From positions 1 through 64,000 of the forward strand of contig NZ_BATA01000003.1 in assembly GCF_000474235.1 (NCBI RefSeq): DNA of 64,000 nt. Reading direction: 5' to 3'. Positions 13,563-55,021 of the stretch are shown piece after piece. A program made the position numbers and the translations under genes. This DNA is from Halarchaeum acidiphilum MH1-52-1. Lineage in GTDB: Archaea > Halobacteriota > Halobacteria > Halobacteriales > Halobacteriaceae. The notes below the pieces were generated by a model. The model saw only the letters and a program-made list of their open reading frames with translations, was not told the origin of the DNA and searched no databases. Numbering within the stretch: position 1 is the stretch's first letter; every line of letters starts with the position of its first letter.

Positions 13563-13661
13563 GAAACGGTGAGGCTGGGATTCGAACTGGACGAGACTCC
13601 CAGTGATCGTCTCGTATGCTCGAATCCAGCGTCCCGTTCGTCTCACGTTGTTCGACAGAAA
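13563..13661 (-). mobile_element. tRNA-Ser 3'-flanking module with truncated tRNA copy
   Basis: Directly 3' of tRNA-Ser. A 25-bp perfect repeat (13563-13587) copies the tRNA 3' end from the T-loop GTTC to the discriminator plus 4 nt of flank; the original is 13658-13682. Between the copies are 70 nt with two nested inverted repeats: outer arms CTGGGATTCGA and TCGAATCCAG (one bulge), inner arms ACGAGAC and GTCTCGT. The spacer resembles that of the tRNA-Lys module at 54693-54813, including GTTGTTCG next to the intact tRNA and, in tRNA sense, GTCTCG...CCA just before the truncated GTTC. No gene is carried. Confidence 0.75.
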
Positions 13662-13744
13662 CGGTGAGGCTGGGATTCGAACCCAGGAGGCTGAATGCCA
13701 CCGGTTTTCAAGACCGGCGCGATAGGCCGCTCCGCCACCTCACC
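13662..13744 (-). tRNA. tRNA-Ser (anticodon TGA)
   Basis: 83 nt class II tRNA. The acceptor GGTGAGG/CCTCACC has discriminator G, as expected for serine. The anticodon stem CCGGT/ACCGG encloses CTTGAAA, giving anticodon TGA (codon TCA). A long variable arm (TGGCATTCAGCC) follows, and the T arm is CTGGG TTCGAAT CCCAG. No intron and no encoded CCA. Its 3' 21 nt are repeated 95 bp further along the transcript direction, in the module 13563-13661. Confidence 0.96.
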
Positions 13745-13814
13745 GCGTGATGGCTCGTTCTCGTCGATGCCGTATGCGGTTTTCGGCTTCGTCCCGTCGC
13801 GCGCGCGACGGATG

Positions 13815-54692: not shown

Positions 54693-54813
54693 TTCGCAGG
54701 AAAACGGGCCGGGAGGGAATTGAACTGGGGCGAGACGGTCCTCACTTCGTTCGGCTGCGACTCGCTTGCTCAATTCCCGGGCGTTTTCACTGCTCAGGTT
54801 GTTCGCAGGAAAA
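54693..54813 (-). mobile_element. tRNA-Lys 3'-flanking module with truncated tRNA copy
   Basis: Directly 3' of tRNA-Lys. A 33-bp perfect repeat (54693-54725; original 54802-54834) copies the tRNA 3' end from the T-loop GTTC through the discriminator plus 12 nt of flank. The 76-nt spacer has outer arms GCCGGGAGGGAATTGA and TCAATTCCCGGGC and a short inner stem GCGAG/CTCGC. It matches the tRNA-Ser spacer in CGAGAC, TGCTC-A-AT-CC and CTCA-GTTGTTCG, in the same order. In both, the truncated copy ends at the first G of GTTC and the joined sequence is CCA. No gene is carried. Confidence 0.75.
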
Positions 54814-54887
54814 CGGGCCGGGAGGGAATTGAACCCCCGACCGTCTGATTAAGAGTCAGACGCTCTGCCTAACTGAGCTACCGGCCC
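54814..54887 (-). tRNA. tRNA-Lys (anticodon CTT)
   Basis: 74 nt. Acceptor GGGCCGG/CCGGCCC, discriminator G. D arm GCTC...GAGC with AGTTAGGCA. Anticodon stem GTCTG/CAGAC encloses ACTCTTAAT, anticodon CTT (codon AAG). T arm GGGGG TTCAATT CCCTC. No intron, no CCA. Its 3' end is repeated 109 bp further along in transcript direction, within the module 54693-54813. Confidence 0.96.
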
Positions 54888-55021
54888 AACGCATTCACGA
54901 CTTACCGCGGGGTAGTCAAATAAGTTTCTTTCCGGGGGCGACGTGCGTTGCGGTGACGGGGATCACGCGCGTTCCCGCTGTCGGGAGGGTTAAGTGACGG
55001 CGTACGGTATCGGCCCGTAAC

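Follow-up and report, generated by a model that had tools for sequence, protein, structure and literature searches.

Miniature, probably integrative cassettes with a conserved hairpin core behind the tRNA genes of haloarchaea

Integron cassettes lie in tandem, each ending in an imperfect hairpin whose structure outweighs its sequence, with a GTT-containing boundary and an order that varies between strains. The small units described here share with integron attC cassette arrays the tandem layout, the terminal imperfect hairpin, the GTT boundary and the variable order; unlike integrons, they dock at tRNA genes, have no known adjacent integrase and carry hardly any genes. Haloarchaeal MITEs and palindromic repeats are short, non-coding, hairpin-rich and dispersed, as the units are, whereas the units are fixed at gene 3' ends and come with a copy of the gene end instead of the short target duplication of a transposase. 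The 178-bp tyrTV repeats of E. coli (RttR/tpr) stand in tandem behind a tRNA and each closes with an exact 19-nt copy of the tRNA end. The units, too, are tandem repeats ending in a tRNA 3' end, but the tyrTV repeats occupy a single locus, begin their copy later (AATCC) and have no common core; we found no inverted arm in them better than 8/12 pairs, and the haloarchaeal core motif was not visible in the K-12 repeats compared. Archaeal tRNA-targeting elements and proviruses, like the units, insert at tRNA 3' ends, restore the target and leave a displaced copy of 21-22 nt (PMC8371274, PMC3119063). The units differ from these in their length of about 95-160 bp, the absence of an integrase, a conserved hairpin core and arrays at many tRNAs.

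The window, the whole stretch of 64,000 nucleotides that was analysed, belongs to a 165-contig haloarchaeal assembly, that of Halarchaeum acidiphilum. Its tRNA-Ser(TGA) gene lies on the minus strand, so the unit, roughly 95 bases in size, is the 3' flank of the tRNA and reads leftward:

13661-13745, minus strand: tRNA-Ser(TGA) (ARAGORN and sequence)
13630-13661, minus strand: linker from the tRNA-Ser 3' end to the hairpin (sequence)
13620-13629, minus strand: 5' outer arm (P1), CTGGATTCGA in the sense direction, an inverted copy of the T-arm (sequence; orientation set by comparison)
13591-13615, minus strand: inner stem-loop ACGAGAC/GTCTCGT, counterpart of P2 (sequence and comparison)
13575-13585, minus strand: 3' outer arm (sequence)
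13567-13587, minus strand: copy of the tRNA 3' end, GTTC to discriminator (sequence and comparison; identity reaches 13563)

The duplicated part of the tRNA is 13662-13682, again GTTC to discriminator. An earlier, sequence-only reading of this DNA had described a 25-bp copy of the tRNA end and nested outer and inner arms, and these are present as described: the repeat GAAACGGTGAGGCTGGGATTCGAAC occupies 13563-13587, with a second occurrence ending at 13682, and the inner arms are 13591-13597 and 13609-13615. That reading also took the outer arm for an inverted piece of the T-arm, which this unit alone cannot decide because the T-loop TTCGAA is palindromic and does not separate an inverted from a direct copy. 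Units of tRNAs with a TTCAAAT or TTCAATT loop (GGGATTTGAA, GGGAATTGA) show the inverted orientation. The TCGCAG/ACCGT motif of other units is unrecognisable here, the core model R2 gives no match, and an Rfam search of the unit returned the tRNA itself and sub-threshold chance matches only, with no match to RttR.

The window holds a second unit, behind tRNA-Lys(CTT), which extends over about 54705-54778; its tRNA-Thr(TGT) has none.

54813-54888, minus strand: tRNA-Lys(CTT), host of the second unit (ARAGORN and sequence)
54770-54778, minus strand: inverted T-arm GGGAATTGA, fitting the host loop TTCAATT (sequence)
54730-54765, minus strand: core hairpin with P2 GCGAG/CTCGC (core model R2, 41.2 bits, 54722-54772; sequence)
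54760-54755 and 54739-54735, minus strand: TCGCAG and ACCGT, respectively, inside the core (sequence)
54705-54725, minus strand: copy of the tRNA-Lys 3' end, GTTC to discriminator (sequence; identity runs on to 54693)

Among 59 relatives searched, 3/3 sister species and some genomes from other families have this layout behind tRNA-Ser(TGA), and other genomes of the same family have a plain tRNA-Ser followed by the same downstream gene, which is thus present with or without the unit. The copy tracks its host tRNA: where the tRNA has a TTCAAAT loop the copy has TTCAAAT, and where the sister-species tRNA-Ser has CCTCGCCG in place of the CCTCACCG of the window, the copies change alike. Recurrence of the layout in three sister species and at many further tRNAs excludes a chance origin. 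The window unit is not an isolated scar; it is one degenerate representative of a family that forms tandem arrays.

To survey haloarchaeal genomes, we used a search pattern made of the inverted T-arm and the motif GTAGACNNGTCGCAGC, common to several units. It was present in 141/292 genomes, with an almost empty reversed-pattern control; the host tRNAs were those for Phe, Ile, Lys, Gly, Pro, Leu, Ser, Thr, Glu and Arg, and tandem arrays were frequent. A covariance model, R1, was run beside the tRNA family model on three genomes. It placed 80 of its 94 matches within 1 kb 3' of a same-strand tRNA, where chance would place about 1% (G203: 45 kb of 3' flank within 5.4 Mb, both strands). The remaining 14 lay behind a tRNA that the tRNA scan had missed (4), behind a displaced tRNA 3' end (5), behind aspS (1), in other intergenic DNA (3) or, unresolved, within a tRNA cluster (1). 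R1 includes T-arm sequence and is hence biased to tRNA sites; the core-only R2 agrees with it. In these three genomes 20/51, 17/45 and 17/42 tRNA genes bear units, the largest array has five, and the first unit mostly begins 35-45 bp past the tRNA. All 67 cores fitting the strict pattern (67/67) lie 3' of a tRNA in the sense orientation. The spacer family is thus nearly always found 3' of a tRNA gene, and a spacer confined to this genome and without a conserved structure, one of the outcomes that would have refuted the sequence-only reading, was not met.

In a sample of the phylum, the Halobacteriales were positive (9/9) and other genomes were not (0/61), and the family is so far limited to haloarchaea. 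Viral contigs held no unit when searched with one exact pattern, nor did phage records searched with one query. Two haloarchaeal megaplasmids have units behind tRNA or tRNA-like sequences; on a Natrinema megaplasmid (L211, CP031304.1, about 235.2 kb) the unit sits on a tRNA-Glu-like sequence with an apparent insert. A dense cluster of many tRNAs on one contig (L074, G301:C2:75500-81000), possibly a mobile element, has a unit beside one tRNA. We found no earlier description of these haloarchaeal arrays in the literature searched, of which coverage was partial and bioRxiv lay outside, and the cassette family is apparently undescribed.

The duplicated tRNA end has sharp boundaries. In a census of one genome, 19/43 tRNAs had a 3' copy matching at least 14/18 positions; most copies were identical to their own tRNA (18/18), and shuffled tails seldom reached 14. 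Across 122 copies, identity between tRNA and copy was 0.27 and 0.66 at the two positions preceding G53, 0.96 at G53, 0.93-0.99 up to the discriminator, and 0.66, 0.51 and 0.45 past it. Copies were selected on positions 0-17, and the flanking drops and positions 18-20 are independent of that selection. As far as sequence comparison can tell, this profile is the footprint of tRNA-targeting site-specific integration: the units have a direct repeat of the tRNA 3' part on both sides, as tRNA-targeting integrative elements do, and the 22-nt duplication reported for a haloarchaeal (Hqr. walsbyi) prophage in tRNA-Ala (PMC3119063) agrees with the copy. Displaced copies behind tRNA-Arg, tRNA-Pro and others in several lineages (L175, L144, L125, L035, L111) recurrently read GTTCACAATCC, with one extra base; no tRNA with that loop was seen.

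Comparison of relatives shows occupied and empty sites with continuous flanks. At tRNA-Arg(TCG), the H. acidiphilum genome has two units and the three sister species none, and the flank past the last copy matches the one found directly behind the tRNA in G003. Such empty sites were seen at tRNA-Arg(TCG), in a comparison of four species, and at aspS in G292, compared with G203; the sequence-only reading had proposed looking for them in sister strains. They share a common breakpoint, so the other outcome that would have refuted that reading, plain tandem duplication without one, was not met either. In G190, of the same genus as G292, the unit behind aspS closes with a second copy of the last codons, FPRDRQRLSP-stop, which differs only synonymously. 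In G203 the functional aspS gene has a synonymously altered 3' end; its native end, with the native flank, is found downstream of the inserted segments. These arrangements point to aspS 3' ends that were apparently imported. Some aspS copies start at AGATC and not at GTTC.

Other units also depart from the tRNA pattern. One lies at the 5' end of an ArsC-like gene (named by its translated start only), and two stand between other protein genes and contain no tRNA sequence (L072, G301:C1:177375; L076, G190:C1:2393181). L076 adjoins a LeuC-like start, and both have the P2 GATAG/CTATC. Behind tRNA-Ser(GGA) in G028 (L050/L086) the interior is inverted relative to the tRNA, the only such unit seen. 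Nearly all units are without a gene. A search for gene-bearing cassettes gave one clear case only, a segment of 1.24 kb between copies that contains an ORF of 201 aa with a TAT-like signal and is possibly such a cassette. It sits in a tRNA-Lys array (L066, G203:C1:1628000-1631000) with seven tail copies, including the tRNA's own. The same array twice holds another cassette type of ~160 bp without the usual core. Elsewhere (L065, G301:C1:656000-663000), tRNA-Lys and a copy of its tail are 5 kb apart, and the intervening segment has an IMP dehydrogenase-like ORF and acetyltransferase-like ORFs, with no integrase noticed.

The hairpin is built of P1, the inverted T-arm paired with the tail copy; P2, a stem of 4-5 bp followed by a T.T mismatch and two further pairs; a conserved internal loop, CAG/AC; and a variable P3. 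Across 119 matches, 96.9% of paired cells were standard and P2 had 134 cells with double changes, compared with 36 in shuffles (0/500 shuffles reached the observed number); sliding the pairing partners abolished the signal. The alignment was fitted to the model, and MAFFT alignments (A4 and A5) concur. We rejected the P2 register AGACG:CGTCT, which fails in variant units, whereas NNAG:CTNN covaries.

Covarying stems that mostly lie in the sense direction 3' of tRNAs could also belong to co-transcribed structured RNA trailers or small RNAs in tRNA processing, or to tRNA-derived RNAs, with the hairpin as an RNA fold. This possibility, which the sequence-only reading had kept as an alternative, is disfavoured by the missing wobble asymmetry, yet it is not excluded. 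An RNA fold should favour G.U; the ratio of G.T to A.C was 8:8 in P2 and 23:27 in the P1 centre, whereas it was 49:2 in the tRNA stems of the same loci (ARAGORN partly favours G.U). Only the base of P1 (offset 1; G.T 33, A.C 0) has the wobble-tolerant sense-strand pairing that marks a functional RNA family; it favours the sense strand, and we have no explanation for it. Structured RNA also leaves unexplained the unpaired copy of the acceptor end, the empty sites, the units at aspS and the ArsC-like gene and the synonymously replaced ends, and we consider it unlikely. The absence of G.U preference in P2 and the P1 centre makes a DNA hairpin or cruciform likelier, and the folded structure is probably DNA, not RNA. 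Among apical loops of the motif GA[AG]C-GNN-G[CT]GA, 55/61 were GNA, a loop that is exceptionally stable in DNA. Where the flanking tail copies differ, the 5' arm agrees with the leading copy in 17 cases and with the trailing one in 4; the displaced downstream copy drifts, uncompensated in the 5' arm, so P1 is not maintained in place. Such a bias would be expected if P1 arose with the cassette's own leading tail, and plain drift of displaced copies predicts the same.

Arrays also turn over. In another genus, tRNA-Ser(TGA) arrays vary in unit number and order, three linkers recur at changed positions and beside different hairpins, and a hybrid hairpin combines parts of two others. Together, the empty sites and the reshuffled, hybrid arrays imply that both insertion and homologous recombination act. 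Selfish tandem repeats could in principle be made and homogenised by homologous recombination and gene conversion alone, without site-specific insertion: near-identical tandem units (L175), exact duplicated segments (L063) and the hybrid hairpins show that such recombination occurs, and haloarchaea are polyploid. We find this account improbable, as it leaves unexplained one core at many tRNAs with host-matched arms, the sharp G53 boundary and the replaced aspS ends.

Larger elements integrate between tRNA and unit. At L070, an element of ~10 kb with a Phage_integrase gene (tyrosine recombinase) lies in tRNA-Val, followed by the displaced tail and then the unit. Such an element, and a 21-22 bp footprint the same as that of haloarchaeal proviruses (22 nt in tRNA-Ala, PMC3119063), might suggest that the units are scars of full-size integrative elements, with the interior deleted and attL and attR left, but we regard this as very unlikely, since independent deletions would not leave one structured core, here common to >100 matches, and this core is absent from the ends of the L070 element.

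The reading that we prefer, and hold to be probable, is that the units are non-autonomous miniature integrative cassettes with an attC-like folded site, docking at tRNA genes; RNA trailers, deletion scars and pure tandem duplication rank below it. The units behave as insertions bounded at the junction of G53 and TTC of the T-loop, with the tRNA whole and its 3' end copied beyond the unit. There is good support for site-specific insertion of miniature cassettes; what we infer are the recombinase, the folding of the DNA and a possible benefit to the host. The sequence-only reading had proposed a very small tRNA-targeting element, and the duplication from G53 to the discriminator, the empty sites of sister species, the tRNA-linked spacers and the aspS ends bear it out. 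It had also judged the element too short to encode a recombinase, which holds for typical units of about 95-160 bp; in this respect they lack the integrase of their own that tRNA-targeting integrative elements have.

In the mechanism we propose, cassettes would be inserted and removed at GTTC by a recombinase not yet identified, probably one of the tyrosine family that acts in trans. The nested hairpin (P1 with the target, P2, conserved internal loop and P3) would serve as the recombination site of single-stranded or cruciform DNA, and homologous recombination between repeated tRNA ends may then duplicate, delete and hybridise units. According to a review of archaeal tyrosine recombinases (PMC8371274), tRNA 3' ends are the preferred targets of archaeal integrases and XerA is able to bind att sites in stem-loop form; a trans-acting recombinase from the host or a virus is therefore plausible, though not shown. 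Counting against this reading, no recombinase is linked to the units, excision and circular forms are only inferred, there are almost no genes, the hybrid hairpins show that ordinary homologous recombination shapes the arrays too, P1 is not maintained in place after displacement, some aspS copies start at AGATC, and no unit was found in the viral contigs and phage records searched.

The P1/P2/P3 anatomy and its covariation are as expected for a folded site of the integron type, recombination of the folded form being inferred. The units do not meet the integron core GTTRRRY: their core is GTTC, with C and not R as the fourth base. By analogy, attC sites may be the closest functional counterpart, and integron membership fails on GTTRRRY. 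More tentatively, and with the balance of our judgement still against it, haloarchaea may have a system resembling integrons, with tRNA genes and the 3' ends of some protein genes as its docking sites; a trans-acting recombinase would insert and reorder folded, target-programmed cassettes, occasionally gene-bearing, and move them across species.

If true, this would mean that mobile DNA small enough to escape annotation lies hidden at as many as about half of a genome's tRNA genes, and would give a reason for the duplicated tRNA tails of haloarchaea. Folded-DNA recombination would have a minimal substrate in nature beyond the integrons of bacteria, and imported sequence would repeatedly take the place of the 3'-terminal parts of essential genes (tRNAs and aspS).
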